The notes beneath the pieces are model-generated. The model searched no databases. It was given only the letters and a program-made list of their open reading frames with translations, and was not told the origin of the DNA. The position numbers were made by a program, and so were the translations under genes. From Salminus brasiliensis (Eukaryota; Chordata; Actinopteri; Characiformes; Bryconidae), in assembly GCF_030463535.1 (NCBI RefSeq), contig NC_132879.1, positions 39,090,597 to 39,154,596 of the forward strand: a stretch of 64,000 nucleotides of DNA. The letters are read 5' to 3'. This document shows, piece by piece, positions 1 through 52,919 of the stretch. The stretch's first letter is position 1; the number at the start of each line of letters is the position of its first letter.

Positions 1-3000
1 ATCGAATTTGAATTGGTCTTGGATAAAATTGTCTTTCTTCTCCCTGTCCGAGCGTTTACCACTTTCATGGCTGCAGAATTTCTTTTCTGCTTTTGTAGGT
101 TCACCATTTTAATCTTCCAAGTCTTTTTAGGTTTTCGAGTTGATCTCCGGGTCCCAGTGAGGACTGCAGGAACAGCAGCATCCTCAGGCACAGAAAGTGC
201 AGACTCCAGAGTGGGTGTGGCGTTAGACGACAAAGTATGTCCCTCCACAGTGTCACAGCTTAACCGTTGTGCGTCTGAAGTGCCATGACACAGACTCTCA
301 TCTACTCCTGAGCAATCTACAGAGGCGTCCTCTTCTTTAAACTGTACTGCAGATTCTCCCAAAACATTCTCAGTGCTCTTGCCCCCCTCACTCCCAACTT
401 CACTGCCCTCAACAAGTCCATTAGACTGATGTTCTCTCTGTTGAGAGTCAGTGCTCTGCTGGGCACTGCTACCATCCTCACTGGTTTCCACTTCTGGAAG
501 GGACTCTTCATCTTGGTTTACGTCTAATTCAATCTCGGTCCATTCAGACACGACTACCACAGTCTCTACATCTGTCCCGTCCACCACACACACAGGAATA
601 TGAGTAGGAACAGAGTCGTCAGCTGGATTTAGCAGACAGTGGCCTGTGCTCGGCTGATCCATGCTGTCTCTCTTGCCAGCCAGAGCAGAGAGGATGCAGT
701 CACTCATACTGAGAGTTGGGGAGGAGGCTGAGATAGAAAGATGTAAAGAATGTATTAGCACTTTTTTGTAAAACTTAACAGAGAAAAAAAACATGTTGTG
801 GCCTATGTTCTACCTACTGTATTTAGCCCGTTTCTGCAGTACCCTGTGTGGCTGCCATTTTGAATCTGATGCGGGCAGCTACAGATTCAAAATGGCAGCC
901 ACACATTTCTGCAGTTGAATCTATATTTCACTATTGGTAATGTGATCCTTCACCGTTTGTTACTGCATTTACTTGCTATGTAATAAACCTGATCTAATAA
1001 CACAGACAATTAAGATATTTTTATTTCATTAGTGGCAGAAATGCATGAATAGGAAAACAAGTCACTTGCTTTTTAATGTTTCTCTGGGGAAACATGTTCT
1101 AACTTCTTTAGAATATAGCCAAAAACAACATATTCTGTAGGTAATCTAAAGGACTTACTACTGATGTTCTAAAATAACAGGAACAGTGAACAGCCACTAC
1201 TCTGACCAGTGTGATAACACATGGTATTTGTCATTTGCTGTTTATAATCCTCACGATTAACTGTTTACTTTATCTGAGGTAATGGACATGCTAGAACATT
1301 ATGGCCTTATAGGGACTACAGGCAAGCATTTCCATCATTATTTAAGTATGTGGTTCGAGTGTGTACCTCAACATCTTTTCTAAAAGAAAATGGCAAGTCA
1401 GAAATGGCATACAGATTGACAATCATTGGAGCTTTCTGAGGAGTCAAACTTATGTGCATAACCGGGACAGACATGGGGTCAAACATACTTTTGGAGTGCA
1501 CCAAAATACAGTCCAAGCATTCAACTGTGTATTTTTTGTTTTACCACAAACCCCACCAGCTCATGAGCAAGCCGTTTCTGACGTCAGTTGGCCATCCTGA
1601 TCTAAACAGTGTTTCCACTTGCTGTAGTTACAACATTTGTTTTGGTACCAAACATATTTCAACACAGAAAAATGCCAGTAACAGCAGGCCTTGTAGAACT
1701 GAAACCATAATACCTACCAAAAGTGTCTAGGTGCCCAAGGCACTTATGGTGTTGGAGCAGCGATTTGAGATTATCTGGGTTACTGATGGATTCTTCACAG
1801 TCCTTTAAAGCAGATGACTCTGAGCTGAGCCAAGCCACTGTCTGAAATCAGACACATTTGGCATTTTATATAAAAAAAAATCTAATTTTTTTTTTTTTTT
1901 TATAGCAATCTATTCTTCAGACAACTTTGTTGGCAAAAAATAAATATTATTCACCTGCAAGAGATCAGGGATTGGCAGGAAGCTCTCCAATCTGGACAAG
2001 AAGTCCCACATCAGTGTCTGAACTGCAGAGTCATAGTTAGGACCAAACTCCACTGGAAACACATCCTGCACAGAGAATAGAAGATTTAATTGGGAACAAA
2101 TTGATTAGCCATCTGAAAATCTCACCGTTGAAACCATGTGTCTCTAAAAAGTAGACCCACCCCAACATCAGCGGCTCTCCACCCCTCAGCACACTTTAAA
2201 AATGTAAGCTAGGGGGTCGATAACAAGTGTGCGAAGGTGATGCTTAGTGAGAGGCAGTCGCTGCGGCGACCAGTGAGAGCATTAACATTTAAAGGTTTGT
2301 CACCCACTGCTAAGTAACAGAGGAAATAATCCCCTCTATTACATCATTAGAGGTGGCATTACAGACACAGCTGAACTGAAACTTCCTCTAGGGGCGCACT
2401 AACCAGATTTAAGCAATTTATCACCATAAAATGGCATATATTGGACAAATCACTTGTTAGTGTGTGCAAACGTGTGCAGATAAAAATATATTAAACATCC
2501 TCTATCATATTTCTTAATTTCTCCATACATAGTTTAATAAATCATCGCACAAGCACTCGAATATTAACCTTCAAAGAGTGAGTTCTGACCTGAAAGAAGT
2601 GTTCTCTCTCGGCAGTGTCTTTCATGAGCGTCTGGACCAGCTCCACAAAGTGAATTCCAGTCTCTTCCATATCTGTACTGTCCACCTGCATGACCAACAA
2701 CAGCCTGTTCATGTTCATGCACATGTGTCATCCAATTATTTCACACGCAACAGAAATAAGATCATGTTTATGCATTACACTTACGTATTTGACCAAAGGA
2801 AGAGACAACTGAATGCTGTTGAGGTGAGGCTGGATTGCATGTATATCTACTGGATCGTCCCTTCGGCACAACTCTAAAATCAGCTACAGGTGGAGGAGCA
2901 GATACACTTAGTTAAGACCAAATAAGCCCAAATGCAACATGTGCACATTTCTAGTTGTTTATGCGATGCGGGTTGTACTCATGCACTTACTTTTGCTCGC

Positions 3001-4272
3001 AGTCCCAGAATAAGTTCAACTCCACGTCTGTGACTGACAAGCTCTGGGATGGATTCAGTAACCAAGGAAACAAAGTCTGCCAGCATCCCGTACTGCGCTA
3101 CGTCCCGCTGCTGCACAGCTTGCCACATGACTGCAGACATGAGGCGGAGAGGTGGGACCAGGAGACGCAGAGAGGACAGATGGAGAGGAGCATGATCTGG
3201 GGGGATTCAAAAAGGTGGGTCTTTTGAGAAGGTGGCTAAAGTAAGCATTCATTAGAACCAGCAATGACCTTGACATTAATGTAGGGTTACCTTCACAGTG
3301 TAAGAAAGACAGAAAAATCCATTTTGCCAATTATGGCTATGCACTGCAAAACAATATGTAACCCAATTATTTTTATGCTTTTTTTTTATTATTACTTTTT
3401 AGGCCATTTTTTACTGTAACTTGGCCTGCAGTTTTCAAGAAATTAACAAGGTTTTAACTTAAGATCATTCATTCTGATTGCACAAGTAGAGCTTGTATAC
3501 AGTTTTTCCACACAGCACCCAGCAACCACCTGGCAAAACCTGAGTAGCCCAGAGAAGACACAGCAACTGCCTAGCAACAACTAAACAATGCCACAGGAAT
3601 CACCTAAAATACCATAGCAACCACCTGTGATACCATATTAACAGCATTACAACACCGTAGCAACCAGGTATCAACACATAGCAACCACATAGCAACAGCC
3701 TATAAACTGCCTGGAAGTGGGAACCACTTAAGCTGCGCACCATTCTGCGTTTCCTTCGGGTTGCTATGCTGCTGTTATGTGCACGAATCCTTTTTTTTTT
3801 AGCAGTGTTGCAGTGTTGATTCCAACCGGCAGCTCAAGGTTTGTGTTTTTTTAAAAACATAGCTATCAAACTATAGATAAAACCAGGTGTGTGGACACTG
3901 GATTTGGGAACACTGCTCTAGGTTAATAATCCTCGGTGCTGCTGGTGCTTCTGACCAGCTCTCAACTGGGCATACATCTCGACAGTGCAGTGAACAAGCA
4001 CTCCCAACTGGTGGCCAGAAAGACTCCTGTGAAAGGTGAACGCTGCTGCTGTCATCTGTGTGAACGATCATTCTGCAGTCCCTCCACACACTTGTGTTCC
4101 GCAGTGAGCGCCTGTTAGCTTACATCTCATTAGTAGTGGAAACTCTGAACGAGTGGACCATAAAGCCTTAAGCGCATATCAACCTGTCTAAAGTCTGCGT
4201 TTCTGCTCTGTAACAACCGCAGCAACTTTCTACCTTACCTGCCTCTTCGTGTTTGGATAAATCGTCCTCCAT
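1..4272 (-). CDS. TINF2_N-domain protein, 5' part of a gene cut by the left edge (probable TINF2_N zinc-finger gene 1)
   Basis: Exons read on the minus strand: 4239-4272, 2991-3196, 2785-2883, 2590-2685, 1955-2065, 1718-1841 and 1-727 (open at the edge); each has AG/GT borders and phases join. ATG at 4270-4272 begins MEDDLSKHEEA. About 465 residues are visible. Residues ~15-195 resemble the N-terminal domain of shelterin TIN2 (Pfam TINF2_N), e.g. LRLLVPPLRLMSAVMWQ, DVFPVEFGPNYDSA and the closing TVAWLSS, like human TIN2 VLSWMQP. Exon 7 is an acidic Ser/Thr/Glu-rich linker with a basic patch (residues ~420-465) and shares DCILSAL with the neighbour at 6804-13666. No zinc finger lies inside the window; by analogy with the two paralogues a C2H2 array probably follows beyond base 1. 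It could instead be a finger-less TINF2. The domain call is fairly sure, the full architecture is not. Confidence 0.78.
842..908. repeat. Perfect 24-bp inverted repeat (hairpin) in intron 6
   Basis: Left arm 845-868 and right arm 882-905 are exact reverse complements around a 13-nt loop at 869-881. The arms contain GGCTGCCATTTTGAATC and its complement. CTGCAG lies just outside both arms (about 832-837 and 910-915). The hairpin sits in the intron between exons 6 and 7 of the TINF2_N gene. It may be a small palindromic MITE or a hairpin transcript. Confidence 0.85.
3495..3725. repeat. Degenerate tandem repeat based on AGCAACCACCT
   Basis: The unit AGCAACCA(C/-)(C/A)T recurs many times with drift (CAGCAACCACC, TAGCAACAACT, TAGCAACCACC, TAGCAACCAGG, TAGCAACCACA). 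It lies in intron 1 of the TINF2_N gene. Similar arrays are common in teleosts. Confidence 0.7.
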
Positions 4273-5100
4273 CCTTGCAGCTGAGATGCTGAAACACTTA
4301 TCCCTGAGAGAAAACACTGCTTTTAATTTCAGCAGACAGAAAACGTTCTTGTACGGGTCTTTACATTTCTTATAAACGACAGTTTCGTCTGTTACAGCAG
4401 TCGCATCAACTTCAAAACAGTCCTGGCCGAAAAAGCCTCAGCGCTGTTGAACATGCACGCCTGACCTCCGGACATTTTGCTCGACGCATTTCTCCAGGTT
4501 TCCTCACAGCGCCGCCAGGCGTCCAGCTGACCACACGACTGAATCCCCGGCGAGAACACACTGCAGTGAAAAGGCCTGACCTGAAGGGGGGCACCAAAGT
4601 CCAGGTTTTTAAATCATATACTTTACATTAATGTATTTATCATTTACTTTGCTGGAGTGACGACGTGTTTCTGAGCAGATATATCCGAAGAAATAGGCAT
4701 TCTTCCTTTTTTGTAAGAAATTAAAAAAACGTATTTTGCACCAGAACTTAAAAATTAGAGCTGATTTTCCAAAACGCAGACATAATTTAATTTACATTAC
4801 ATGTAATAACACGTTTTTTTAAATTCAGTATTTTTTACTTATCAAGTCTACATATGATAATCCACAACTACAAAGTTAAATTGGTAAACGTTTTTGAACG
4901 TTTTATTATAGCTATAGTATTATAAATGTATTAAAAGTAAGACTCATCTTTTAGATTTTAAGTATTTAAAAACATTATGTATTTAATTGACGTAAGCATT
5001 CAGAAACCTCACTTGAAGTACTTTTGGTAGCATTAACGACCTTTAAGTCTTCTTGGAAACAAGAGTCAGAATTGCAGAAAAGGTTCCCACAATTGAGTAA
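4273..5100. promoter_or_regulatory. Probable promoter and 5' region of TINF2_N gene 1
   Basis: This stretch lies just upstream of the minus-strand ATG at 4272. Bases 4390-4600 are visibly richer in G+C and CpG than the surroundings, as expected for a CpG-type promoter. No TATA box or mapped start can be asserted. The rest, to about 5100, is AT-rich with no recognisable gene. Confidence 0.35.
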
Positions 5101-5104
5101 GAAT

Positions 5105-5298
5105 AGAATTGAGTCTTATTTATTGTATTTATTGTATTTATTGTATTGTCTTGCACGTTGCACTTTCTGCAGTCCGTCCTGTACTGTGTTGTTTTTGTTC
5201 CACGTTGCACCTTTTTTCTGGGAAAAACGTAATGTGCTTGTTTGGGTTACTTGTACAGAGCTAAAATGACAATAAAAGGCTCTTGACTTGAACTGACA
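5105..5298 (+). repeat. LINE/SINE-like 3' tail element, copy 1
   Basis: This segment ends AAAATGACAATAAAAGGC followed by CTTGACTTGAA. The same signature (ATGACAATAAAA plus a CTTGA tail) is seen at 54094-54283, and a diverged version at 26640-26875. The upstream part is TGTATTTAT-rich and then TTGCAC-rich, like the other copies. It looks like the 5'-truncated 3' end of a non-LTR retrotransposon or a SINE using its tail. Confidence 0.6.
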
Positions 5299-5299
5299 G

Positions 5300-6665
5300 C
5301 TGACATCTAAAGAGCTCAATGCCTCACAAAAGCGACATCACTAAACGTTATTATATGAAACCGCTTTAAATACAGTGCTGGTCCATGGAGTCCCAGAACA
5401 AGCAGTCCCAGCTCTACACTGCTAGGGTCACCTGCACTTTGCAGTTTTGTGTTTTCATCCTGAACATCAGCCACGTGTTTGGTTTAAATGAGGCATTTGA
5501 AAACATTGTTTTCTGATAGTTCTGTCAGAAAGGCTCTTATCTTATCTTTTAAAATATAGACATATTGGAGGGGCAACATGCAGGGTGGTATGGTGTATAT
5601 ATATATGTGCGTGCGTGCATGCATGTGTGTATGTATAAATAAACGATTATATAAAGAAATTAAATTATTAACCAGGGGTAAGCGGTACAAAACATAGTGG
5701 GGAGTTATGTCATTTAGAGAGAACACGGTTTCATTTTCTTAATATCTTCAGAAAATGATTTTGTGGACGAAATGACTTGGATGAAATCCCAAGTTTCAAG
5801 AACACGGGGAACGCATGATAAATGCGTTAAGACAGAGATAAAACAGAGAAAATTAAATGTTAACCCAGGGCCTTTTATGGCTTCGTAACCGATACAGTCG
5901 TAACCGATAACCACTGTTATGCACTGTTAGGAAATAATATGCTAATATGCACAATTTCTGCTTATTTGCTCATCCATTATTCCACATACTGAACAAATAA
6001 AACAATACAAAGCGTACATAGCCCTCTGTACATGCAACACTTTGTGTTACATTGTGCAAATAAACACTAATTATTGACTATTTATCTGTAGAGAATGTGT
6101 ATTTATTTTCACAAAACAGAATCTAACAGTGTCCAAACTGTTGTGTGCAATTTTCCATTCCAAGAACCCTCAAAAATACCTAGAATAATTACCGTTATTG
6201 CTCAACATAAGGTGTCCGAGCAGCTCTACAACAGCATAATGTGAACAACAATAAGCACATACTCACTTCATTGGTCCTATCTGCTACTCCTCACACACAC
6301 ATACTGCACTTCATCTGTCTCATTTTTGGTGGTTACACTTTCTACCAAGGCACTAAAAGCGAAATGGGTTAGAAAAAAGATAAATATTAATCACTGGTTC
6401 CCTAGTATTTACATGCTGCTGTCTTATGCATCTGGTCAAGCACACCAGCTTACTGACCTATTTAGGCTAGTGTCAACACAGCAACAAGTCTTTAAAGCCT
6501 ATTTCTTTTATTTATAACTTTACAGCCAAAACACAAGAACTGGCAAAAATCACAATATGAAAATAAGTAAAGAATACTCCTCAGCATATTCAGCTATTTT
6601 GTAAGTAAGCAAGTCACAGAATAAACCAGTTCTGTAGGAGATCTGCTCAGTATTAGAATGTACAG
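5300..6665. other. Gene-free intergenic stretch
   Basis: AT-rich sequence between the gene 1 promoter side and the 3' end of the next gene. A short TA/TG-rich microsatellite lies near 5597-5635. I see no coding pattern, RNA gene or clear repeat; ORFs here are short and lack any family resemblance. Confidence 0.5.
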
Positions 6666-6671
6666 TTTATT
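6666..6671 (-). terminator. Poly(A) signal of TINF2_N zinc-finger gene 2
   Basis: TTTATT on the plus strand gives AATAAA on the coding strand, about 135 bases after the TAA stop at 6804-6806. This suits a short 3' UTR. Confidence 0.5.
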
Positions 6672-6803
6672 TTTGATTCTAGTGAATCCATACAAAGTCA
6701 ATGTCAACATTTTAGATGGTTACTTATTTAGCAAGATCATCATAATTCGGCATTCATTTATTATACATCCAAAGTTGTCAAGGTCTGTGCACGTTCAATT
6801 CTA

Positions 6804-12800: not shown

Positions 12801-13666
12801 AAATTTGTTTCATCAGCATAACAAAAAGCCTAAATGATGGCGTTAGAGCTAAAATCAGGTCATCTGACGCACACTCACCCTTGCCCTCAGGCCCAGGATG
12901 AGCTGTGCTCTTTGTCTGTAACTCAGCAAGTGGGGAACAGTCTCTGTGACCATGCAGACAAACTCCTCCAGTTTCCCATAATGTAGGACATTTTTCTGCT
13001 GCAGAACCTGCCACATAAACGCAGACATCAAGTGTAAAGGTGGAACCAAGAGCCGCAAAGAGGACAGAGGCAGTGTGGACCCTGAAGAGGACAGAAAATA
13101 ACAATGTTTAAAAAAAGAAACAAAGCCCATTTTGCCTTATTACATTACAGTTCTTGTCAATAGAACATCTTACATTTTACTTCAAAAGATAAATATTAGA
13201 TAAATAGGCAAAAAAAAAAGTATTATTATTATTACTACTACTAGATTCGTACACTTTAACTCCGTGATAATCTTCAATTTGTTTATTTTGTATTTTTTTT
13301 AATCATGATGTAACTTACACCACTAACTGTTAGCTAGGTCAGTAGCATTATCACAGTTTAACCCATGAGGTTAATGCTACCTAAAGCTCACTAGTCAAAA
13401 TGATAAATGACAAATACCAGCTAACAAACTATCAAACAGAGAAACAGACGTCTGCACTTGCCTGAGTTCTATCTAGCTAATACACCAATGCGCATTTTAT
13501 TAAGGGCTACGTTAGCACTATTAAATAATGAAAAGCCAGCGAGCTAATGTGGTGACACTGGACTAACGCAATTAATAACGCAAGCATGAAGCGACCTTCA
13601 CCGCGTAGGACCCACAAATAATTGTATACCTTGATCTCTGATTCTCTGTAACTCCTGTTTCTCCAT
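6804..13666 (-). CDS. TINF2_N / AT-hook / 14x C2H2 zinc-finger protein (gene 2, complete)
   Basis: Exons on the minus strand: 13630-13666, 12879-13081, 12033-12128, 11751-11846, 11519-11629, 10504-10645, 8689-9454, 8556-8584 and 6804-8188. All splice in phase to 954 residues. ATG at 13664-13666 begins MEKQELQRIRDQ. Residues ~15-195 match the TIN2 N-terminal domain (LRLLVPPLHLMSAFMWQ, EVFPVEYGQKYDKAL, TLSWLTP). Residues ~229-493 form an acidic linker ending in two AT-hook motifs (GRGRPRK ~449-455, RRRGRPP ~467-473) and KxE SUMO-type sites (FKAE, VKVE). Fourteen C2H2 fingers with TGERP linkers fill ~532-921. Exon 8 is only 29 nt. It is probably a nuclear DNA-binding regulator. The TINF2_N domain suggests protein contacts like those of shelterin TIN2, which is inference. 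Neighbours 1-4272 and 47867-52919 are paralogues with the same exon layout. Confidence 0.9.
9850..10060. repeat. Fragment of a teleost interspersed DNA repeat
   Basis: The phrase CATTTTCAGCACTGCAGTGA, followed by CACTGGCATGGCGGTGGT, resembles a widespread fish DNA-transposon-derived repeat. It sits in intron 6 of gene 2. Ends are unclear and identity is from memory only. Confidence 0.4.
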
Positions 13667-14360: not shown

Positions 14361-14369
14361 GTGCTCTGT

Positions 14370-15600: not shown

Positions 15601-15609
15601 CATGAGCTA

Positions 15610-15955: not shown

Positions 15956-15964
15956 TTAAAAACT

Positions 15965-20320: not shown

Positions 20321-20324
20321 GCTT

Positions 20325-21970: not shown

Positions 21971-23995
21971 TCAGTAAGCAACAGCTTGTTTCTCTGCAGC
22001 ATGTCTTTTCTGGTGTTCTTTTAAGTACCCTGATCTGAGAAAAGTCTTCCCACACTGCTCACACTTAAAGGGCCTCTCTCCAGTATGTTTTCTTTCATGA
22101 ACTTTTAGAGAACCTGGGTGTGAAAAGCTCTTCTCACACTGAGTGCACTGGTAAGGCTTCTCTCCCGTATGTATTCTCTGGTGAACTTTCAAAGCACTCG
22201 ACTGAGAGAAGCTCTTCCCGCAGTGAGAGCAGTGGTATGGCTTCTCTCCCGTGTGCATCCTCTGATGGCTTTTCAGCAAGCCCGCATGAGAGAAACCTTT
22301 TCCACACTGAGGGCACTGGTAAGGCTTTTCTCCAGTATGTATTCTGACATGGATTTTTAGGGACGGAAGATGAGAAAAACTCTTTCCGCACTGCGTGCAG
22401 TGGTAAGGCTTCTCTCCAGTGTGTATCCTCTCATGAACCTTGAGTGAGCTTGGATGAGAGAATTTCCTACCGCAATCAGAACAGCTGTAAGGCTTCTCTC
22501 CAGTATGTAGTCCCTCATGATCCTTCAGTGAGCTTGGATGTGAAAACCGCTTGCCACACTCAGAACAACAAAAGGGTTTCTCTCCAGAATGCATACGTTG
22601 ATGTTTTTTCAAGAATTCATGCCTCGAAAAACTCTTCCCGCACTCAAAGCAATGATAAGGCTTCTCTCCAGTATGTATTCTTTCGTGTAACTTTAATGAG
22701 CCTGAAAGGGAAAAGCTCTTCCCGCACTGAAAGCACTGATAGGGCTTCTCTCCTGTGTGTGTTCTCAGATGGCCTGTTAATGAAGCTTGGTGAGAAAAGG
22801 TCTTCCCACACACTGTGCAGAGGTAAGGCTTCTCCCCAGTATGTGTTCTTAGGTGGGTTTTTAGAAACTGTGGCCTTGAGAAACTTTTCTCACAGTAAGA
22901 ACAGGGGTAACACTTTTTCTCTGGGTTACTTAACTGTGTGGAAAAGATGACACTCTGAAAACTGTTGGTTTCTTCACCAAACTCTATATTTCTTGGTGTT
23001 TCCTCAGACAACGTCTGCTCTTCTGGTTCATCTTTCACGAGCACATCAATGCCTAAAACACAGACTGTGATCAATGAACAGTGATGAGAATCATAGGGTC
23101 ATGCAATGCAATAGTCTACTCGTGATATTAGTGAAGGGGCTGTTTATGCACAGCAGGGGTTTTCAATCTACAAGGACCTGTATCTTGTCATATTTGCCAT
23201 GTTCATCACAGTTGAATTTTCATATTGCACATTTTGGACATTCATGTTTTGTTTTTTTGCAAAATGCTAGTATTTGCTCTTCTGGTAAAGGCTAGCTGCA
23301 TTTCATGGCCTTGTACTTGTACTGAGTAATGACAAAGTTGAACATATCTATCATGCAATACTGACAGCCATAGGAAACCTATTCTATTATTCACATTCAC
23401 ATAATAATACATATGTAACTTGGAGCCACAATAAGTCTATTCACTAACTCAAGTATTAGGGGGGTCTGCTGCTGAATCACGATTGGTGAGTTGCTGCAGC
23501 TGTTCTGTAACAGGCCTGTAAGCCAGACCACAGCCCTCTTTTTTAACAGTAAATATGGGCAAATAAGCAATATTGGCCAAATAAACCCAAAGAATATGTT
23601 AGCTGGATTGGTAATACTTAATTACAGTATAAAGGAGCATGTAGTGAATTTTCTATCGTGTCTCCATCTAGTCAGACCAAAGGCCCTGGTTAATAAACAG
23701 CAGCCTTCTCGCTGGATGTTAGTTCTCCTCCGTTATTGAGGGCTGGGTTATTGATCAGCTGACACCAAGTCAGGAATCACTTTGCAATCGCTGAGACCTC
23801 ATTTAACTTAAACCGTTATTCCCCGATAAAGGCGAATCAGAGCAGTCTCCGGGTCTATTTTAGCTCACCATCTATGCTGGTTTCGTACTGCTCCGTTTTA
23901 ACGCCACACTCCGGGACTCTCACTTCTTCATACTCCTCCTTCGTGCTGCACTGCATCTGCACCACTTCGGAGAAAAACACTACAGGCTGATACAT
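21971..23995 (-). CDS. C2H2 zinc-finger protein with 11 fingers (two exons)
   Basis: Exons on the minus strand are 23869-23995 and 21971-23052, splicing in phase to 402 residues. ATG at 23993-23995 begins [15 protein letters not shown]. Residues 1-90 are a short acidic leader with two KxE SUMO-type sites (VKTE, VKDE). Residues ~91-393 carry eleven canonical C2H2 fingers joined mostly by TGEKP linkers, the pattern of sequence-specific DNA binding. No KRAB, BTB, SCAN or TINF2_N domain is visible, unlike the other zinc-finger genes here. It is probably a nuclear transcription regulator; targets cannot be inferred. The exon 1 leader resembles those of the large fish-specific gastrula-type C2H2 families, which is weak inference. 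Orthology cannot be assigned from fingers alone. Confidence 0.88.
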
Positions 23996-28273: not shown

Positions 28274-31200
28274 ATGCATATCAAAACAGGTGAGATGTCT
28301 GCCGTGAGCGCCGTGTCTGTGGATGTCCGTGTATGTGTGCTTTGGCGTGATTTTCGCGAGTCAAACGGTCTGGAGGTTTGAGATGGTCGAGTCAACAACA
28401 TGCCAGGAATGAACTGAAGTCTTATGAAACTTTCTTACGAAAGCGTGCGACTTCTCTGAACGCTGCCGTGCAGTTTAAGACCGGCCAGGGCGAGGGGCCG
28501 AGGACACTGCGCACATTTTAAGGCTGTGATCTGAAGGCAAACTTCTTTACTGTGGAGGAGTGTACGTGAGGAGAGAGTCAGTTAGCACTAAGTTGGTTTC
28601 CCGGCAGGTTGTCGTTAGCTAGACACTTTTAGAAGCTAGCTAATAACGTCGAGCTAACGTTACAGCGTGAGCTGCTAGCCGACTTCCTTAGCGAAATGTA
28701 GCCGACCATGGCGAAATAGAAATAAAGTGCTCTTACACGAAAGAAGGGTTTGGGTTTTGTCTAAGTTTTATTTCCTGGTATTAGCACAAGCAAGCTTGGC
28801 TAGTCGTTTGTGGTCGAACCTTCCCAGCTAAGGCGGCTAGCTAGCTAGCATATCCAGCTAGTGCTAACTAGCCCGTCTTAGATTTCAGCGTCTCTGCAGT
28901 TTTGACGGATTACGCTCTGCCACCAAGTCTGGCGACGCTGGAAATGAACAAACTAACTAAAGTTCTTCATTTTCTTTTACATTACACCAAACATGTCACC
29001 AGCGTGTTCGGGAAATTTCAAGCTAAATGGCTACCCAGTGCTACATGTCCTGTTCTTTTGCTTTGGGGAGTTTAGCAGAGGCTGAGGGCTGAGTTGGTCT
29101 AAGCCTTCCCGCCGTATTACAACCTGCGTTACACTCATACGATGCAGTTTCAGCGAAACGGGTGAGCAAGACAATAGGAGGGAAATATGATTTATTCAGG
29201 TGTTAATTTCATGTAATGGTTGTCAAAACAGCAGGCTGGTGAGGATTCTGTGTAGGCCTCATCACTAATTTTCAACCTTTACATGCAGCGTAAATACATC
29301 GTTAGGATTACATGAACAGGTTGCAAGGCAGATATTTTGCTTATGAATCAATCTCTCATAAGGTTCAGTTAGAATACATGATAAATGTACTTTACAAAAC
29401 TTTCATGTGGCTTCAGTCGTTTAGTTACTGTGCGATGTGTGTGCCATGAATCAGCCTTTCATGTACGTGGCTGTGCAGAAAGGATTAGATTTTTATTTCT
29501 TTATTTATTTACTTATTTTTGTTTGTTTTTGCAATGAGGGGTAAAGTGCTGTTGCATCAAGATAAATCTGGAAGCACGAAAAGCCTGTCATTAGTACATT
29601 TTAAATAAGTGGGCTTATTTAGATTAGCTAAAAATAGAATCTTAGATGTGATCCTTACAAGCCAAATACAAATAGAGCTTTCGTCAGTTTTCTCCTGCCC
29701 TTGGTGAATGGAGATTGGAATCTAATAACATGCATTTTTTTTGTCAGGTACCTGGGAGGCAAATAATGCAGTGTGCGAGTCTGACCCCTTGTGTGACCCT
29801 GCTGTCCTCGTCTCTGCCCCCAAGCCAGAGCCACACATCCGAAATCGGCGCCTCTCCCCTGGCTCTGGCAGCTGTGGTGGTGGAGGTGGAGGAGGAGGCT
29901 GCTCCGCAGGAGTGGACAAGCAGTCCGGCCGTCAGACTTCATCAAGCAGCTCCAATGAAACACACAGGACTGGGCACATTCAAGTCTTCACCCCCAGCTT
30001 GCACAGAGAGCAGCGGGCGCACAACAGGGGTAACAGAGGCTCTCGACAAGAGGGAGCTGGGATGGGGGCTCGTGGCGGCGAAAAAACCCTCAGGTCCTCT
30101 CATGCCCACACACACAAAGAGCGGTGGGTGGGAGACACGTTGTCGTCCCTCAAACCTCCACCTGCCTTCCCAGTGAAGGACAGCCCTGCCAAGTTGCAAC
30201 CTGCAGTCAGCTATGCCTCCAAAGTGAAGGCAGGTGGAACTTCAGGAGGAGTAGCAGAAGAGCCGCCTGGTATCCGGGTGCTTCTGCAGAACCAGTGGGG
30301 GCTCAGTTTTATCAGTGATGGGCCAGCAGTAGAGAACGCAGCTTCGGTCCCACCTCAAGGTGCATCAGGAAATAGTCCAGCTGCAACTCCGCACCCGGTA
30401 TCTGGAGAGGAAACTGCTGGAACTTCAGCCTCATCAACCTCCCCATCTTCACAAAGCCCGTGCTCAAAGGAACCCAGGAATTCTGAAGAGCTGCTCCTTA
30501 GCTGTCACCATCTAGTGGAGGCTGTGGAATATCATACACAAGGTGAGTGAGGTGTTTTTGTTCCTCTCCTCCTTTCTTTTCATGCATTTGTTTGTTTCCT
30601 TATTGGTGTGCTGTCTGCTTGTGATTACACAATTTTTCCATATTGATCTTTGTTTTGTTTTTTGTTTTTCCCCAGAATGGAATGCAATATTGTGGGGACA
30701 AAAACAAGGTGAGAATTGAATTTCCATTTAAATGGGGGAATATGAAGAGTTGCTGGGCACCTGAATACAGGTGGAAAAACAAACAACCCACACCTGTAGC
30801 TAGTTTAGTTAGTCAGTCCCAATAAAAAGACCAAGGAAACGTGGAGGAACCAGTCTACTAAATGTGCCTGAGGAGTTTTAGCCAGTAATGGAAAGGCGTT
30901 CCACAAGCACTTCTGTTTACAAATTGTGTACCCTCTGTCTGTACATGGTTGTGCTGGTTAAATTAACGTTAGTCAAGATCAGCACTACCCAACCCAAAAG
31001 AAAAGTGTCAAATACATCAGCTGAAATTAATAGGCTTACTCTATTACTTGATGGCAAAAAAAATCAGAAGCACATATTTTACAGCTGAATTATTTGAAAA
31101 TGCTTTCTTATTTAAAAGTAAAGCGGTGGATAATCTGCAGTGTTGTAATGGGTAACGCACTGCCTTTAAGTGATAAGCTACAGCTGAGAAACACAGTAGA

Positions 31201-31563: not shown

Positions 31564-31568
<5 letters not shown>

Positions 31569-33420: not shown

Positions 33421-33644
33421 TACATGTCAACCATTTCACTATGCGACAGTTTTTGAAAAAATAAGTGTCATGAGTTGCAAAATGCACCAAGTTAAACCCT
33501 AGAGACAGCTAAAGAAGGCTGCATGCTGGTACGGTGACAAAGAAAGGCACCAGTTGCCAGATCAAGAAACTTCAGAATCTTCAGGATATTTTGTTTCCAA
33601 TTATTTCTCTTCAGGCTGGAACCGATATTTGGATTTGTAACATC

Positions 33645-40472
<6,828 letters not shown>

Positions 40473-42505: not shown

Positions 42506-42595
42506 ATGTCTAAGAGGGCCAAGAAAAACGAGCAGGCTTCTACAGGTGAAGGCAACGATAATGGAGCAGGTAAACAGAGCTGTCGTTTTGATAAA

Positions 42596-42641
<46 letters not shown>

Positions 42642-45310
42642 ACGCCCTCATGAGGGTTTGATTGCTTTATTTACACATCGTAGAGCCGGCAGCAAAGAAA
42701 GGGAAGAAGGCAAAGGAGCCAGAGGCCCCAATTTTGTACGAGGACCCTCCAGACAAGTTGACCAGCAAGGATGGCCGAGCAGCTAACATGAAGATCACCT
42801 CTTGGAATGTCGACGGCCTCCGTGCCTGGGTTAAGAAGAACGGACTTGATGTGAGTTAAATCTAAAAGTTTAGTCGCTTACTGAAAATGTTGAGTTATTT
42901 ATATTAGAACATCTGGCTTTTTTGGGGGGGAGGGGTTGGTTTGGGAAATGCCTCCTTTAGAACAGTGACCATTCACTAGCAAGCTAGATTATACTTGTGT
43001 GTGACTTAAAGCTTTTATCAAGATGGATAAACATACCTAGTAGATAAACATAGCTTAATTAAAAGAAAAAACAGCCAGTTGTTTTTGTAGCACATAAAAT
43101 TTAATCTTAAAGTTCATTTTAGCTCCAACCCATGTGAATCTTGCTGAATGCTATTGAATGTATAGTATGTAGTGAGATCATGTCTAGTCTCATAGCATGT
43201 CCAGTCTATGTTCATAGTTATTTTTTTGAACATTATAGATTACATAATTCACACCCATTTAAAGTTTATTAATAACCTTATTATTATTATTATTATTATT
43301 ATTATTAGTAGTAGTAGTAGTAGTAATAATAATAATCAAAATTACTCACCCCAGAGCTTTTCTCAAAGAACAAATCCCACCTCTCCGTCAATTAGAACTT
43401 TAGTAAATGTGTTTGAGACGTCTTCCCTTATATTACCCTGAATATTTGTCCTGTACTATATTCAGTCCTATTCACTGTTTCTGGTTAATGAATAGTGTTC
43501 ATTTAAACAGATTCTACATTTTAATCTATTTCATTTCCGATTTGTTTTGTTTGTCGCTCCCGACAGTGGGTGCGTCAGGAGGCTCCAGACATTCTCTGTC
43601 TTCAGGAAACTAAATGTGCTGAGAAAGCCCTGCCAGCAGATATAACCTCTATGCCCGAGTATCCTCACAAGTACTGGGCCGGTTCTGAAGATAAAGAGGG
43701 CTACAGTGGGGTGGCCATGCTGTGCAAAACTGAACCAATTGAAGTCACCTATGGCATTGGTAAGTGCTGCAAACACGTCTGTAATTTCTTCTGGTTGCTG
43801 CTGAAATAGAAATCTGTAACTTTACAGCACCATGCGCATTATTATTCTGTTGTAGTATTTGGACAGTAGAAGCTTCTGTATTTTTACCTCTACGTCATCA
43901 CAATTAATTTGAAATAAGGCAATCAGGATTTGATTAAAGCGTATGCTTTCTTTTTTTAATTCAAGTTAAAAAGTTTAACAACCATATTTAACATTGGAAA
44001 CATTTAATATGCTATCCACAGAGGTGTGGATGTAAGAAAAGGAGGCTGTCATCTGAAAAAACTAAACAAACCTATCAGAACGATAGCAGAGAAGTTTGAG
44101 AGTTGCCACATCAACAATTTTGGTACATAATAAAAAGAGGGAATGTACTTCTGAGCTCTAACACCTCATGTGGATGATTGCAGAATTTCTGTCTTGTTGA
44201 AGAGAAATCCCCCATCTAGTCAGGAACACTCGAGGAGGGGTATCATTTGTCAGATTCTATATTAAGTTTGGATAAGTCTTTGCTAGAAAACATCCAAAAA
44301 GCCTGCCCATTTTGGTTGTCAAGATGTTTTGGGCAGATGAAACCAGGATAATTTGTACCAGAATCCTGGCGTTAGAGGAGTATGGAGAAGGAAAGGAAGG
44401 GCTCACCCAAAGCATACCACATCATTTATCAAACATGGTGGAGTACCTGTTTTGGCATGGACATGTTGCCAGTGGAACTGGGACAGTCATTGACTACAGA
44501 TAATTTACATCTAAGCATTAAAAAACTTTTGTATAATTATTAGTTTGTGCAGTCACGTTTGAGCCTGTGAAAATGGCTGTAATTCCTAAATGATTTATGC
44601 AATATAGTTTCTGCAACTGTTTGAAATCTTTCTTTTTTGCCCTGCAATTACACAAAGCAAATTATTTACCATGTTTAGAATTGCTATACCTCGAGTGTCT
44701 TGTTAGGTTAAGAAGAATATTGTCAGAGAAATAATTCTAACATGTATTACACCTTTTCTTATTTGGACACTACTTTCATGTTTTGCCCACTGCAGGTAAA
44801 GAGGAGCATGACAAAGAGGGCAGAGTAATCACTGCAGAGTTCCCCTCCTTCTACCTGGTCACAGCCTACGTGCCGAACGCTGGGCGCGGGTTGGTGCGCC
44901 TTGATTACCGCAAGACCTGGGACGTGGACTTTCGTGCCTACCTTAGTAAACTAGATGCACAAAAGCCTTTGGTACTCTGTGGTGACCTCAATGTGGCTCA
45001 TCAGGAGATTGATCTGAAGAACCCCAAAGGTAACCGTAAGAATGCCGGCTTCACTCCTGAAGAGCGTGAGGGCTTTAGCCAGCTCTTGGCTGCTGGCTTT
45101 ACCGACAGCTTCCGGGAGCTGTATCCAGAGCAGACCAATGCCTACACCTTCTGGACCTACATGATGAACTCACGGTCCAAGAACGTGGGCTGGCGCCTGG
45201 ACTACTTTGTGCTGTCTGCTGCCTTGCTGCCAGGTTTGTGTGACAGCAAGATTCGTAACACTGCCATGGGAAGTGACCACTGCCCCATTACCCTGCATCT
45301 GGTTGTGTAG
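42506..45310 (+). CDS. apex1: APEX1, apurinic/apyrimidinic endonuclease 1
   Basis: Exons 42506-42569, 42684-42850, 43567-43759 and 44796-45310 join in phase to 312 residues (human APE1 has 318). It starts [10 protein letters not shown], a Lys-rich nuclear tail. The exonuclease III fold follows from [10 protein letters not shown]. Catalytic and metal residues are present: Asn63 and Asp65, Glu91 (LQETKC), Tyr166, Asp205 and Asn207 (GDLNVA), Asp277 (WRLDYF) and His303 (SDHCPIT), each 5-6 lower than in human numbering. The enzyme cuts 5' of abasic sites in base excision repair. Human redox Cys65 is Thr60 here (KITSWN), as in zebrafish, so the Ref-1 redox role is not expected. It lies head to head with osgep and tail to tail with the zinc-finger gene at 47867. 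Confidence 0.97.
42600..42639. repeat. (GT)n microsatellite in apex1 intron 1
   Basis: About twenty uninterrupted TG units, 31 bases after the exon 1 donor and 44 bases before exon 2. The intron is only 114 bases, so the repeat fills about a third of it. Confidence 0.9.
43278..43336. repeat. Trinucleotide microsatellite in apex1 intron 2
   Basis: (TTA)n runs into (GTA)n and then (ATA)n without a break, a compound repeat of about 59 bases. Confidence 0.9.
44010..44510 (+). mobile_element. Degenerate DNA-transposon remnant in apex1 intron 3
   Basis: A plus-strand frame near 44312-44503 reads [12 protein letters not shown] and later [15 protein letters not shown], the spacing of the first Asp block and middle of a Tc1-like transposase. 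Upstream AAAAGGAGGCTGTCATCTGA is repeat-like. Frames are broken. Family unknown. Confidence 0.45.
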
Positions 45311-46965
45311 AGCTGATCCCTTCAAAATCTTTTAGGGAATCCCCTTAATTAGTGTGCAGGGGATTTCTTTCTTTTTTTTTTTTAGTACGGATTGGTAAGA
45401 TATGTAGTGATGTAAGTATCTGTTCTTTTTCTGTTATTTTCCATTTAAGCAGCCAACATTGGGTGGTCACAGCTGAAAGTGTAAAAGTAAGTTACGGTTA
45501 ATAGATTAGTTTGTATTTTTGTTAGATTGTGTCTTTGTTGACAAGTTTTGGTTCTTTTGATTTTACTACCACTCTACTGAAGGGTATCGTTTATAAAGCT
45601 ACATCTATATAAACCTCAGCATTTATAAAGGCAACTTCTTAATCTGCAAACCATTTCATTCCTAAACATGTGTGCTTTAACAAATCCATTAACTCAATTA
45701 CATAACTCTCAACCTGTAAAACAATCAGAGACAGAGAAACACTGCTGATGCACAAGATGAACTATTTGTAATCCCTGCATAACTACTGTGAGAAATAGTC
45801 AGAGGATGATGTATTACAAATGAGGATGGAACGAGCTAATGTGGCGTTCAGTGTTTGGCATTATTTAGTCAAAAAAAGTGATTAATTGGATTCAACACAA
45901 AATTACCATTTACCTAGAATGGCTGTATTGCTAAGCAAGTAATCAAGTACTGAATTCTCTCCTTTTTTTTTTCTTTTTTTAAACCAAGCTATCAGTAATT
46001 ATTTGGTGCTGTTGCACAATTTACTTGTTGGTGCTAAACTGTATTCACTGTGCTTCCCACTTTTATTGCAACATGAAAGTGCAAAGAGTAATCACCTGCT
46101 TCTTTGCTTTGTTGACCACATTTTGTAATAAACTAGTTTATTAAAAGGTGTGTGTGTGTTTGAGTCAACAAAGACTACAGTAGCTCATAACCAGTCCAAA
46201 CAATTGTCCCGAGCAGAAAAGCAGCTCAGAATGCACAAAATGTCAAACCTAGAGACAGCTGGGCTACAACAGCAGAAGACTATGATGGGTTCCACTTCTT
46301 AGCCAAGAACAAAAAGCTGAGGCTGCAGTGAGTACAGGTGAAAGGCCATGTTATATAGTCCTATAGTATATCTCGTAAACTTGATTAGCTTGCCCGATTT
46401 TCCACCAGTACCTATTACTTGGTTGGCCATTTGCTAAAATTTAGAAAGTTGATGCCATCCAGTTTCAAATGCAGCATAACATTGTGGCTGAAGTGTTGGA
46501 TCAAGAAATGTGAAAATAAAACTGAAAATATTTATTTTGATATTTTATATAAAATATTGACAAAGCTTCTTGTCAGGCACTTCTACTTTTTATTGCAAGA
46601 AATAAAATGATATTAGGAATACACCCCAGTAGTGCCCTATGAAGTTTTCAGGTGGATCAGTGTTTTGCTCCTGAGATTTCAGTGACTGGTATGCTTGTCT
46701 GGTTCTACTTTTTCATGTTTTAACATTAACAATTCTTTCCATGTTGTTAGACAATATGAGCTTGGCAAAGTTAGTGGGTTGCCGAATGTAAGAAAGACAA
46801 CAATGCCAAAAACAACGACCACCTGACCTACGCAGTTACAAACACAACTCATTCAAACAAATTGCTAAGGTCTCCATTTCAATGTACTTAATTACTTAAA
46901 CACTGCCCTTTTCAGTGTGACTTCAAACTTAACAAGAACAACAGTACATTGACTCTGATGCAATA
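45311..46965. other. apex1 3' UTR and spacer between convergent genes
   Basis: The apex1 3' UTR probably runs to the signal at 46127-46132. About 0.8 kb of AT-rich DNA with no gene then separates it from the 3' end of the minus-strand zinc-finger gene. Confidence 0.55.
46127..46132 (+). terminator. Poly(A) signal of apex1
   Basis: AATAAA about 820 bases after the stop, followed by a GTGTGTGTGT stretch at about 46149, a typical downstream GU-rich element. Confidence 0.6.
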
Positions 46966-46966
46966 A

Positions 46967-46972
46967 TTTATT
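46967..46972 (-). terminator. Poly(A) signal of TINF2_N zinc-finger gene 3
   Basis: TTTATT on the plus strand gives AATAAA on the coding strand, roughly 0.9 kb after the stop at 47867-47869. Confidence 0.5.
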
Positions 46973-47866
46973 GAATCAAAAAAAGTTTAGACCCCATATT
47001 TAGTTTCAAACCGTCAATGTCTCGAACTCAAAAACGAGTTTTGTTCAGGTTCAGAATGCCATACATAACTTATGTTCATTTTCTTTAACAATATTTTAGT
47101 CTTTATAATAGCATAAGATAAATACTGTAGTAGAGACTTAATCCTCATCACTGATTACAGTATATCATCCACATCAAGAGCTTCTGTTGGACCATTCCAA
47201 GGACAGAACTATTGCATGTGCTCCCAAACATAAGAATGTCTTAGAAAACAATTCAGATCAAACAAAAAAGTATGCAAGTATGAAAATACATCTATGTACA
47301 AAAGCACTCGCTTACAAAGTATCTCTGTAGATTTTTCAATAAACTTCTATATCTGTTGTACATACATCACAAATGCTTATACTTGATGGGTGCCTGGCCC
47401 ACACCCCCATCTTAACTGTATACATTTCACCTATGTCTAAAGACCCATTGGGAATGGCTCTTATCTGCATATAGTCTGTATTATTAGTATAGTGGGCTGC
47501 CTGAATCCTGAAACTATGGATTCTACACCATAACGCAATAACTGGAGAGTCGTGGTACCTATGGCTCAGTATAAATGGCTTTCTATTAGACATACAGCAC
47601 ACTACCTGAGCGTAGAAGCTGCTATTTAGGGAGTAGGGAGTTATTTGTTATGATGGACAGAGTAAAGAGATTACTGATCAGACCTGATTTCCTTGAATGT
47701 TGTTCCTTACTTCATAGAGTAGGTCTTCAGGGTAGGAGATTACAAGAGAAGAAAACTGAGTGAGCTGTGTACTTGTTGCTATCTAAAATTTCTCCACCAC
47801 CACCTTTACTACCAAACTCCACCTCTTTGTAACCTCAACAGGTGAGAAAATGCTCATTTACTTCGC

Positions 47867-50800
47867 TTAGTAGGGGCTTTTGGTATCGCTTTTTTTGCGC
47901 ATGTGATCATAGCTCCTACGCTCCCCTTGCTCGGCCAGGTGAGTCTGCTCATGCTTCTTGAGCGGCGCGGAGAACTTAAAGCTCTTGCCGCACTGGGAGC
48001 ACTGCCAGGGCCGCTCGCCTGTGTGGTTCAGCATATGCGTCTTCAGGTGGGATGAGTGCTTGTAGGTTTTGCCGCACTCTTTGCAGGTGAAGGGCCGTTC
48101 ACCTGTGTGCACGCGTTCGTGCCTCTTCATGTTGCCGATCTGAGAGAAGGCTTTGCCGCACACCTTGCAGCTAAAGGGCCTCTCACCCGTGTGAATGCGC
48201 ATGTGGCACCGCAGCATTTCAGGTCCGGCAAACGTCTTGTGACAGAGGGTGCACGGGATCTGCATGCGGGGTCTCTGGTGGTTGCGCAAGTGTTTCTTCA
48301 AGTCAAACATGTACACGAAAGACTTGCCACATACAGAGCACAGGTACTTGCGATCCCCGACATGATAACCCTTGTGCCTTTTCAGAAGGCTGGCGTAGAT
48401 GAAACTCTTGCCGCACACGTTGCACTTGTAGGAACGAGACATGGAGTGGTAGCGGACATGGATGGACAGCTTAAAAGCGGTGGGGAAGCATTTCTCGCAG
48501 TGAGGGCACTGATGGAGGCTTTCCGAGGTGTGGCACTCGCGATGGATCTTCAGGTACGAGCCCTGTGAAAAGCTCTTCCCACAGATGTTGCACTTGTATG
48601 GCTTCTCGCCTGTATGCACACGAACATGCTTGATGAGGTCTGCCTTCTTGCGGAACGTTTTGGTGCACAGCATGCATTTGAAGGGCCTGGCGAGAGAGTG
48701 CGTTTTAATGTGACTGGATAGGAAACTTAGACACCGGAAGCTTTTGCCGCAGTCTGAACACTGAAAAGGCCTTTCGCCTGTGTGCGTGCGCATGTGGTTC
48801 TTTAGCTGGCAGTCATAGCGAAACTCTCTTTTACACATGGGACACAAATGGTTCTTCTCCCCTTCTTCTTGTGTCACCTGAAGCTCAAACGGTACTGCCA
48901 TCACCTTTCTACCTGGAGTTGACTGAATGGGTATACTTTTCCTATTAATGATAGTCTTTATAGACGGCGGCCTTTCAACTATGGGAACGTATGTTGTCTC
49001 CTCTGCAACAACCTCTACAGGGGCAGAGGGGTTCAAAGATGGAAGGGAAATCACCCTTCCAGCCATTTCTGAGATCCACTCCTCGATGCTTATTTCCCTT
49101 ACCTCAGGTGTCTCCCCTTCTTCCAATTGTTCAAGAAACTGTAGCTGAGTGGTCTCCTCTCCCCCGTTGTCAAGTTCTGAAACTATGACGGTGGAGCCGT
49201 CTGCAGTGAGGTAGATTTGCTGGACTTCACAGATCCCTGTATTGTTCTCTTGGTAAACTGCATCCTCTTGTAATTCTTCCTTGACCCCAACAGTAGTGGC
49301 TACTGCAATGTTGTCCACTAAAGGTTCCACCTCCTCCGTATCACTAGGGGCAGGGCTCATTATAGTTGCAGCGGCACGGTCAGACTCTGACTGGTTTTCG
49401 GTCATTGCTTGTGCTATGATAATTGCCTCCTGTGCGACAGATGAAGGATGAGAGATTTCCTCTTCAATGATAGGCTCTTGTTTAACAGAGGCAGAAGATC
49501 CTCCATCAGTCAAGCGGGGCAAGCAAACAACTTCGCTTGAGGAATGAGTGGATGCTAAAAAAAAATCCAAACGAGGAATGTTAGGGTTGGCTGTTATAAT
49601 GATCATGATAGGTTACTCCTAGGATAATTAACTCCACATTTGTGCTCTCAGTTGTGAAACTTCATCATGTGTAATTTGATTCCTCCAGACATAACGCTGA
49701 TCCATAAGCCCAAAAAGTTACAGTTTTGTTTCATCGTTCCACAGGCCTATGTATCAGCAGGATTTGGTCAGCCAGACTTGATGCATGGCATGTGCTGTGG
49801 TGAGCTGAATGAGATCATGCTAACTAAGCTAAAGCAAACAAGATTTCCACCAGACTGATGGTTTAAAATTGGTTAAATGATTGGTTTAAATTTGCCAATA
49901 TTGCTCTTTAAGTGATTGATTTCGGTAAGAAAGCTGAACTTTGTCTCTGATTTGTTTTGGCACAGAAGCCACGGAAGCGTATGAACATCTGAAAAGAATT
50001 TCCCCGCCCTCAGTAATATTGTATACCACGCTAATATTTGGAGAGGGTATGACGATATGAAAAACGTGGATACTTTAACCAAAACTATCAAAACATACAC
50101 AAATTCATCATTGCTAGAAATAATTTCAGGAACTCTACCACTCATTAATCCTGAACAGATATATTTAACTTCACTACCCCACGACAAAGTGTAATGCAGG
50201 GTTTTCAAACTCAAATCCAAAAAAAAGCCCTGCTTTAGCACTTTAATGCATGTGTTGGAATGCAGTAAATGTATATCAGACTTACCATTCATATTGCTAC
50301 GTTTCTTGGTTTTGAAGTGCTGTAGCACATCCCTTAGTTCTGCTGGGTCAGAGAGCGGCTGCACTATATCCTCCATTGCAGAAAGGCCACCACATAGCCA
50401 TGTGGCTGTCTGAGAAAATGTAGAACATCCATGTCAAATTAATTATAAGGGATGTTCATAACCACTGCAATTTCAAACAGACCAGGTTCTAGTTTGTTCG
50501 AAACCAGTGGGTCCCAACCCTGGTCCTGGAATACAGTCTTTGACCACATGACTACTGTACTTTTACAGAAGCAATAAAAAATATCCTAATAGTAGTAAAT
50601 TAAAAGAGCTCATCCCACTGTCATTCTCTCCCGTAATACAACACAGTTCTGTACAGTTACTCTGTAATCCACATATGTACTGATTGTGTTATGTCATGTC
50701 AGTGTTCATTGCACCAGCCAATACTCTTTCATCTAATAATTATGTTCCACCACTGACTTGCTCCTGAATAATTATTTGAAGTTGTTGGACTATTCCAGCT

Positions 50801-52919
50801 GTAACAGAACCAAGCTTAATTCTAGTCTATTTTATGCCCGATTACGGCTGTTGAAATAGTTCACACAGACTGGAGGCACACAACGGTGTAATAAAAATAA
50901 TAAATAAAATAATAAACAGAAAACTAAATTTCAGTTGTAGCCATTGATGTAAGCTCATAAAATGTTTGGGACCATTTACATTGGTTTATTCATCATGATA
51001 TTTTACACAAGGCAGCTGGCATTTTTCTAATATAAATAATTAAAATACAAAAAATTAAGATGACCCACCTCTTTAAGGTTTGGCACTGGTAGCAGTTCAT
51101 CCACTCGTTTCAGAAACTCCCATGCTAAGCTCTGCAGCACTGCATCAAATCCAGTGCCATACTCAACAGGAAACACATTCTGTAGATAAAACATGAGCTT
51201 CATATGTAAAAATGTTGAGAGAAACAAGGAAAGGAAATGCTGAATGGCTTGATTAAAGAGATCAATTGAATACCAATGTCTCACCTGAATAAAAGTCTCT
51301 CTTTTGGCTGTATCCTCCAAAATATTATGAATCATCTTTATGAACTTAGTATTCATGATTTCACTTTCCACATCTGTGCACTGTGAGAAATTTAAAATTC
51401 ACATTACATTTACAGCATTTAGCTGATGCTCTTATCCAGAGCGACTTACAAGGTTACTCGTACTACAGAGGTGGCCAGTGTAGTGTTAGGAGTCTTGCCC
51501 AAGGACTCTTATTGGTGTAGCACAGCACAGTCACCCAGACTGGGAATCGAACCCCAGTCTCCCACATAGTGTGGTAGCTCACTGGCAGGTAGTGGTGTTA
51601 TCTGTTGCACCACACCAACCAAATGAAATCACAACACAACTTACTGACGAAAACACAAGCAGCATATTTTTTTTCAAATACTTGTGCATAAAAGGTCACC
51701 TACATTATGAGTGAGATTGCGAAGTGTGTCTAGGTGTGCTTGAATTATCCAGACATCAGGGGCTTCGTCCTTAAGACAGAGCTCCAAGATCACCTGCAAG
51801 TGAAAATTACATTTCAAAGAAGTTGTCAATAGAATCATGATAAATATCTGCTGGTGTTGTCTACCTGAGCTCAAACATTTTTAAAAATATTTTTCCAACA
51901 AATTTTAACAGTTTTTACAAGTTTACCTTTTTCCGTAAGTGGAAGATCAGTTTATTAACCAGGCTTTGACTCATGATGTCTGGTACCGTTTCTGAAACCA
52001 TCATAACAAACTGCTCAAACTTCCCATAGTGCGTTACATTGCAACGTTGAACCACTTGCCACAAGAACGCAGACATTAGTCGCAGGGGTGGCACCACAAG
52101 GCGCAGGGCAGAGAGGGGAAGCGCCAGGGCTGAAATACAGAAAGAAAAATGACCCAGCATTGGATTATAGTTACCTATAATTTAACTAATGCGCATGCTA
52201 TATAAAGCTATGCCTTGTGCTGCACTTCAAGCTCTTAAATTTCACACTTTTTAAAAAAACAGAATAACTTGTGTGCATTAACCACACTTTTACCAGACCA
52301 TGTTTCTGGACTTGTACAACCCTAAACCCAGAGGAAAAAATGTTTTTATGTTTGCCAACATTACAACAATTTGCCAAATGAGTCTCAGCATTTATTTGTT
52401 ACTACAATTGTCTTGACAGTAATTAGTTTATTACACTAACATAAAGTTAGTTTAAGCTTATTTACCACAGTTTTGGACCCTTTAATGACTGCTTACATGT
52501 ACTAACATTATTTTTATTTAAGACTATTTTTGGGAAGGTGCTGAGCTATAAGGTGACTTATGAAAGATCACTCAGTCTGGCTGAGCTGAGTTAGTTGAGT
52601 GGAACTGGTGGTTTAAGTGCTTGTGCTTGTTAGCAGACGAGCTAACGTGTACTCTTCTGTTTCAGACACTGACCCCTGACACAAACGAGCACTACTCCAG
52701 CTCAGAAGTGTGTGTGAGCTTATCCTGAGGGAAGGCTAGTGGTGAAGCTGAGGTATCAGTGCTGGAGAATACTGTGACAGGCCTCTAGACGTTTGTGTGC
52801 TCGTGTTGCCACTAGCTTCACTCTCTCCAAACGGCGCCACTTTAGAGCGCTTTAGCTCACTCAGCCGCGCGCACCCCAAACATACCTGTCTGACGACTCT
52901 CCGACGAGACCACCTCCAT
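47867..52919 (-). CDS. TINF2_N / 11x C2H2 zinc-finger protein (gene 3, complete)
   Basis: Seven exons on the minus strand: 52886-52919, 51927-52129, 51704-51793, 51285-51380, 51069-51179, 50286-50409 and 47867-49554, joining in phase to 781 residues. ATG at 52917-52919 begins MEVVSSESRQT. Residues ~14-195 form the TIN2-type N-terminal domain (LRLVVPPLRLMSAFLWQVVQ, NVFPVEYGTGFDAVL, TATWLCG). Residues ~220-455 are an acidic linker with SUMO-type sites (VKQE, VKEE) and a mixed region ending in a basic stretch. Eleven C2H2 fingers fill ~455-758, joined by TGERP, TGEKP and several degenerate linkers, then a basic tail. Exon sizes and phases match the paralogues at 1-4272 and 6804-13666, but it has no AT-hooks and no intron before the fingers. 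Likely a nuclear DNA-binding factor; a shelterin-like partner is inference only. Confidence 0.9.
51385..51645. repeat. Teleost interspersed repeat in intron 3 of gene 3
   Basis: CATTACATTTACAGCATTTA, then CTCTTATCCAGAGCGACTTA, then GGGAATCGAACCCCAGTCTC: the hallmark order of a very abundant fish repeat. The part with GAATCGAACCC resembles a tRNA B-box-type region but no tRNA gene is present. Confidence 0.6.

Follow-up and report, generated by a model that had tools for sequence, protein, structure and literature searches.

In a 64,000-nucleotide stretch of the Salminus brasiliensis genome (NC_132879.1, positions 39,090,597 to 39,154,596; hereafter the window), we identified three minus-strand genes that begin with a TINF2_N domain, the N-terminal domain of the shelterin subunit TIN2, and found that at least two of them continue in frame into tandem C2H2 zinc fingers. 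Gene models were assembled by splicing minus-strand exons from the genomic sequence; each gene yielded a single continuous frame, and GT-AG was found at every internal junction read.

The three genes share a common layout. Gene 1 encodes its TINF2_N domain in exons 1–5 (4272-4239, 3196-2991, 2883-2785, 2685-2590 and 2065-1955), followed by exon 6 (1841-1718, ending in phase 1) and exon 7 (1..727), whose linker is acidic and then basic and which is still open at the window edge, where no finger exon is visible. Gene 2 comprises exons 1–6 at 13666-13630, 13081-12879, 12128-12033, 11846-11751, 11629-11519 and 10645-10504, with the domain in exons 2–5, and an exon 7 (9454-8689) encoding an acidic linker with the motif DCILSSL and two AT-hook-like GRP cores. 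Just past the end of exon 7 an in-frame stop lies inside the intron; splicing instead to a 29-nucleotide exon 8 (8584-8556) preserves the frame into exon 9 (8188-6804), which encodes 14 C2H2 fingers and a stop, with matching phases throughout. In gene 3, the domain exons 1–6 (52919-52886, 52129-51927, 51793-51704, 51380-51285, 51179-51069 and 50409-50286) lead to exon 7 (49554-47867), in which an acidic linker and 11 C2H2 fingers stand in a single exon. Exons 1–6 measure 34/206/99/96/111/124 nucleotides in gene 1, 37/203/96/96/111/142 in gene 2 and 34/203/90/96/111/124 in gene 3, in agreement with the sizes that a preliminary description of this DNA had given for three same-strand genes, and the 14 and 11 in-frame fingers of genes 2 and 3 bear out its view that at least two of the genes run into arrays of 11–14 fingers. 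As read from the genome, the TINF2_N–finger fusion is thus real at the DNA level in genes 2 and 3.

The N-terminal domain is TIN2-like

That description had called the domain TINF2_N-like, and a hidden Markov model search with Pfam TINF2_N confirmed it: all three spliced proteins matched at E < 1e-46 (gene 1, 6.2e-48; gene 2, 1.3e-48 for the full protein; gene 3, 3.5e-47), and we rejected a chance match on these values. The nearest solved structure to gene 2 alone was human TIN2 (5xyf_A, E = 1.4e-13); with a seven-row profile, the same entry was reached at E = 4.7e-22 and was the sole solved-structure match at E up to 5. The TRFH-like domain is preserved along its entire length in the paralogues. 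TINF2_N bit scores were 161–195 for the seven paralogues described below, 190.9 for human TIN2 and 86.6 for a TIN2-like gene elsewhere in the genome (on C13). Since the paralogues score near human TIN2 and well above the C13 gene, such sequences may themselves form part of the Pfam TINF2_N model, and the TINF2_N–finger architecture is likely already present in databases, as the preliminary description also supposed.

In-frame fusions recur across the genome

A family search and a search with the gene 2 protein returned the same set of eight TINF2_N loci, all over the cut-off, although the C13 gene reached only E = 3.8 in the latter; eight is a lower bound, with at least 15 exon matches in the family search and at least 21 matches in the gene 2 protein search. 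Besides the three window genes, the set contains three finger fusions (copies A, B and C, at C2:55.32-55.35 Mb), one finger-less copy on C9 and the divergent, finger-less gene on C13. Copies A, B and C are in-frame finger fusions, open from exon 2 on, with 17, 13 and 12 fingers, respectively, when joined from exon 2 with AG/GT at all junctions; the last donor of copy B was chosen by us to suit the phase, and no exon 1 was found with confidence in any of the three. Their exons 2–6 measure 194/105/96/111/121 (A), 203/93/96/111/121 (B) and 203/81/96/111/121 (C) nucleotides, and A and C also have a short additional exon (56 and 41 nucleotides, respectively) resembling that of gene 2. An in-frame TINF2_N–finger fusion is therefore present in five genes: gene 2, gene 3, A, B and C. 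In the C9 copy (L016/L017; C9:13342908-13345809) the linker is basic, and the 39 kb downstream contain no open frame with at least two fingers. The TIN2-like gene (C13:5549697-5553642) has seven exons and encodes 701 residues without fingers.

Where the finger exon is separate from exon 7 (gene 2, A, B and C), it starts roughly 0.2–0.7 kb after it. A putative gene 1 finger exon would accordingly sit within 5,000 bases beyond the window edge; a 15-kb stretch starting 5,000 bases past that edge contained no open frame with at least two fingers.

These structures bear on the possibility that domain exons and finger exons belong to separate, adjacent transcription units, or that the fingers are rarely spliced in. 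While intron 6 of each window gene does contain AATAAA/ATTAAA hexamers, frame and phase are preserved across the joins in genes 2, 3, A, B and C (with the last donor of B fitted to phase), and gene 3 holds linker and fingers within one exon. We regard such a separation as highly improbable.

The family is paralogous to TIN2

We next asked how the family relates to TIN2 itself. In an unrooted tree, human TIN2 and the C13 gene stood against the seven paralogues, which formed the opposite side (support 100/99), and we therefore rejected the window genes as this genome's TIN2. Single-sequence comparison agreed, with the C13 gene scoring highest against human TIN2 (73.5 bits, versus 30.6–63.9 for the seven). 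Some caution is due on this grouping: the C13 gene is the longest branch of the tree (1.39, with human TIN2 at 0.8), and exclusive letters are even, with 16 shared by human TIN2 and C13 and found in none of the seven, versus 15 human letters that C13 lacks and that five or more of the seven retain. The C9 copy has one of the two shortest terminal branches among the seven. On the evidence of the tree, the window genes are paralogues of TIN2, not TIN2.

Gene structure connects the two sides. Of the four domain introns, two fall in the same alignment column in C13 and the seven paralogues (74 and 149), while the other two lie within gapped stretches (C13 111 versus 112–117; 187 versus 191); all four are in phase 0. 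C13 also shares phase 1 at the exon 1/2 and exon 6/7 junctions with genes 1, 2 and 3. Because intron sites and phases are held in common, we conclude from gene structure that the finger-fusion family is derived from a TIN2-type gene. Under midpoint rooting, the C9 copy splits first and the other six group together (96/97), a topology that fits either fusion after the C9 split or loss of the fingers in C9.

Shelterin-binding positions and linker motifs

According to excerpts of the published work, TPP1 binding is lost with the human TIN2 substitutions A15R, F152A and E153A and weakened with W198A, but not with K160A (PMC8262337), and loop 50–56, a basic loop that includes R52, faces TRF2 (PMC9943673). 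We compared the corresponding residues, W198 lying outside the human sequence used. Positions 152/153, F/E in human TIN2, are W/E in gene 2, gene 3 and the C9 copy, W/D in gene 1, W/M in A, G/H in B and C, and L/H in C13. Position 15, an alanine in human TIN2, is methionine in genes 1, 2 and 3, B and C13, leucine in A, isoleucine in C and valine in the C9 copy. R52 is retained in six of the seven paralogues (it is lost in gene 3) and not in C13.

These positions bear most directly on whether the family might be a DNA-addressed form of TIN2, in which the domain would have kept its affinity for TPP1(-POT1) and/or TRF2, with the fingers carrying these shelterin parts to chosen internal chromosome sites. 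A domain kept at full length, tryptophan with glutamate or aspartate at the F152/E153 positions in four of the seven, and R52 in six of the seven would suit such a role; the G/H pair of B and C, the W/M pair of A and the loss of R52 in gene 3 would not. Since the genome's own TIN2-like gene deviates just as much at the TPP1 and TRF2 sites, these sites do not discriminate, and neither show nor exclude shelterin binding. On balance we consider this reading unlikely. We think it quite unlikely, too, that the family forms a shelterin module at chosen non-telomeric sites, bound to TPP1-POT1 or TRF2, with the C9 copy acting as a free competitor.

A TRF1-docking motif of the form F/Y-x-L-x-P was found in none of the eight linkers, C13 included. 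Directly after the domain, at the start of exon 7, six of the seven paralogues (genes 1 and 2, A, B, C and the C9 copy) carry [DE]x[IV][IL]SxL, which is missing from gene 3 and C13. This pattern, a possible second docking motif, was picked after inspection, and shuffle numbers are no fair test of it. Ahead of the fingers, AT-hook-like GRP cores occur twice in the gene 2 linker and once in copy A (C2:55325231-55326026); Pfam AT_hook scored under its cut-off on gene 2.

Finger contacts differ between paralogues

We next compared the predicted DNA-contacting residues of the arrays (positions −1, 2, 3 and 6) in and out of register. In register, contact identity was 4/44 for genes 2 and 3; gene 2 matched A, B and C at 11/48, 7/52 and 4/48, and gene 3 matched them at 3/44, 6/44 and 3/40, while the remaining pairs gave 11/51 (A–B), 5/40 (A–C) and 20/48 (B–C). 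Against an out-of-register identity of 6.6–12.2%, contacts were clearly above background only in B–C, gene 2–A and A–B. Judging by these residues, the paralogues should mostly read differing DNA sites.

We then considered whether the proteins might be telomere proteins proper, with fingers that bind TTAGGG repeats and place them at chromosome ends. The kinship of the domain to TIN2 speaks for this, as do the last fingers of B (R-T-H-R) and C (R-G-H-R at −1, 2, 3 and 6), which suit a GGG triplet under the finger recognition code. Using a rough form of this code, we ranked TTAGGG among 366 hexamer repeats. Three-finger windows placed it at 286 (gene 2), 264 (gene 3), 171 (A), 279 (B) and 83 (C), four-finger windows at 295, 191, 131, 322 and 60, and six-finger windows at 303, 268, 268, 203 and 43, the last being the best rank in the 15 array and window tests. 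The window's finger gene that lacks TINF2_N reached 12, 65 and 34 with three, four and six fingers, ahead of all five arrays in the three- and six-finger windows but behind C in the four-finger windows (65 versus 60); this marks the code as weak. We accordingly did not accept the code by itself as deciding a telomere role or its exclusion; nothing in it, rough as it is, appears to favor telomeres for the TINF2_N–finger family. The contacts, moreover, vary between paralogues whereas TTAGGG is invariant. A TTAGGG pull-down across 16 vertebrates, including zebrafish and medaka, recovered eight zinc-finger proteins in at least five species (PMC5309834), and none of the eight, as described in an excerpt of that study, is evidently of the TINF2_N–finger type. 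Taken together, we hold a telomeric function of this kind to be very unlikely.

The preliminary description had proposed a TIN2-type hub with its own DNA specificity. Its structural half stands, as the TIN2-type domain is spread over homologous exons and joined in frame to fingers. The telomere-hub half is weakened, both because a separate, finger-less C13 gene groups with human TIN2, so that the paralogues need not do TIN2's job, and because contacts are near background between most paralogues and do not favor TTAGGG under the rough code.

Selection and gene conversion in copies B and C

Between the sister copies B and C, rough estimates of omega (the nonsynonymous to synonymous rate ratio) were 0.17 for exon 2, 0.04 for exon 4, where synonymous divergence (dS) is saturated, and 0.29 for the finger stretch (0.49 for contacts, 0.20 for framework). 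By these estimates, domain and fingers are under purifying selection in this pair. A 154-bp tract comprising exon 5 and its flanks (C2:55334046-55334199 and C2:55342380-55342533) shows 98% identity, whereas other matching stretches are 69–74% identical; this tract is probably the product of gene conversion.

Other genes in the window

Between genes 2 and 3 lies an 11-finger C2H2 gene (21971-23098, minus strand) with mostly regular TGEKP-type linkers, near which no TINF2_N exon was found. On the plus strand, neighboring exons are NUFIP2-like (29729-30550), of the exo/endonuclease/phosphatase family and APEX1-like by eye (44741-45310), of a tetraspanin (58897-60030) and of SelO (62977-63489).

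A proposed role for the family

We consider it probable that the family consists of sequence-specific, poly-finger regulators of chromatin or genes that use a TRFH-like docking domain and are not telomere proteins. In the scheme we propose, a copy of a TIN2-type gene, comprising the TRFH-like domain exons and a linker exon, would have been joined to C2H2 finger exons. The array of each paralogue would choose its own DNA sites, the linker (acidic, and partly basic or AT-hook-bearing) would space domain and fingers, and the TRFH-like domain would hold a short peptide motif in a partner protein, thereby bringing that protein to the DNA sites of the array. SCAN, BTB and ZAD domains are docking modules in other finger proteins. 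The docking function, the partner, the regulatory role and a nuclear but non-telomeric residence are what we infer for this family.

Some observations weigh against this proposal. First, framework identity between arrays was 42–54% in register versus 41–47% out of register, and was clearly higher in register only in gene 2–A (48 versus 41), A–C (52 versus 42) and B–C (54 versus 45). As this hardly exceeds background, a finger-by-finger correspondence cannot be demonstrated for most pairs of arrays; we withdrew an account of contact divergence on a conserved finger framework for this reason, and one single fusion event is likewise not shown, with separate finger gains or reshuffled arrays being possible. 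Second, some residues of the TPP1/TRF2 surface persist, among them R52 in six of the seven paralogues. Third, dS for the B–C pair is above 1 everywhere but in exon 5, making the omegas rough.

Comparison with known systems

In this family, a telomere scaffold domain has been put to new use at the N-terminus of zinc-finger proteins, with a TIN2-like gene kept separately, and the family allows one to ask whether a TRFH-like domain can leave telomeres and which peptide it then binds. On its own, a TINF2_N match in an animal genome need not signify a shelterin subunit. Among the publications listed from the open-licence literature, none is evidently on TINF2_N–zinc-finger fusions, judging from titles and the starts of abstracts.

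The paralogues resemble TIN2 (TINF2) in their N-terminal TRFH-like TINF2_N domain and in its intron sites and phases. They differ in forming their own side of the tree, TIN2 being finger-less, and in lacking F/Y-x-L-x-P in all seven linkers, although C13 lacks it as well. Zebrafish has about 700 genes of the FiNZ-ZNF type found in cyprinid fish, according to an excerpt of the report on them, with a FiNZ domain of 28 residues in one exon (PMC10547256). Both families are fish finger genes with an N-terminal domain of their own, but TINF2_N spans about 150 residues and is found at no fewer than eight loci in this genome. SCAN, BTB, KRAB and insect ZAD finger proteins consist of an N-terminal interaction domain, a linker and tandem fingers, and the genes described here share this arrangement, except that their domain is of TIN2 origin and is spread over four exons (2–5).

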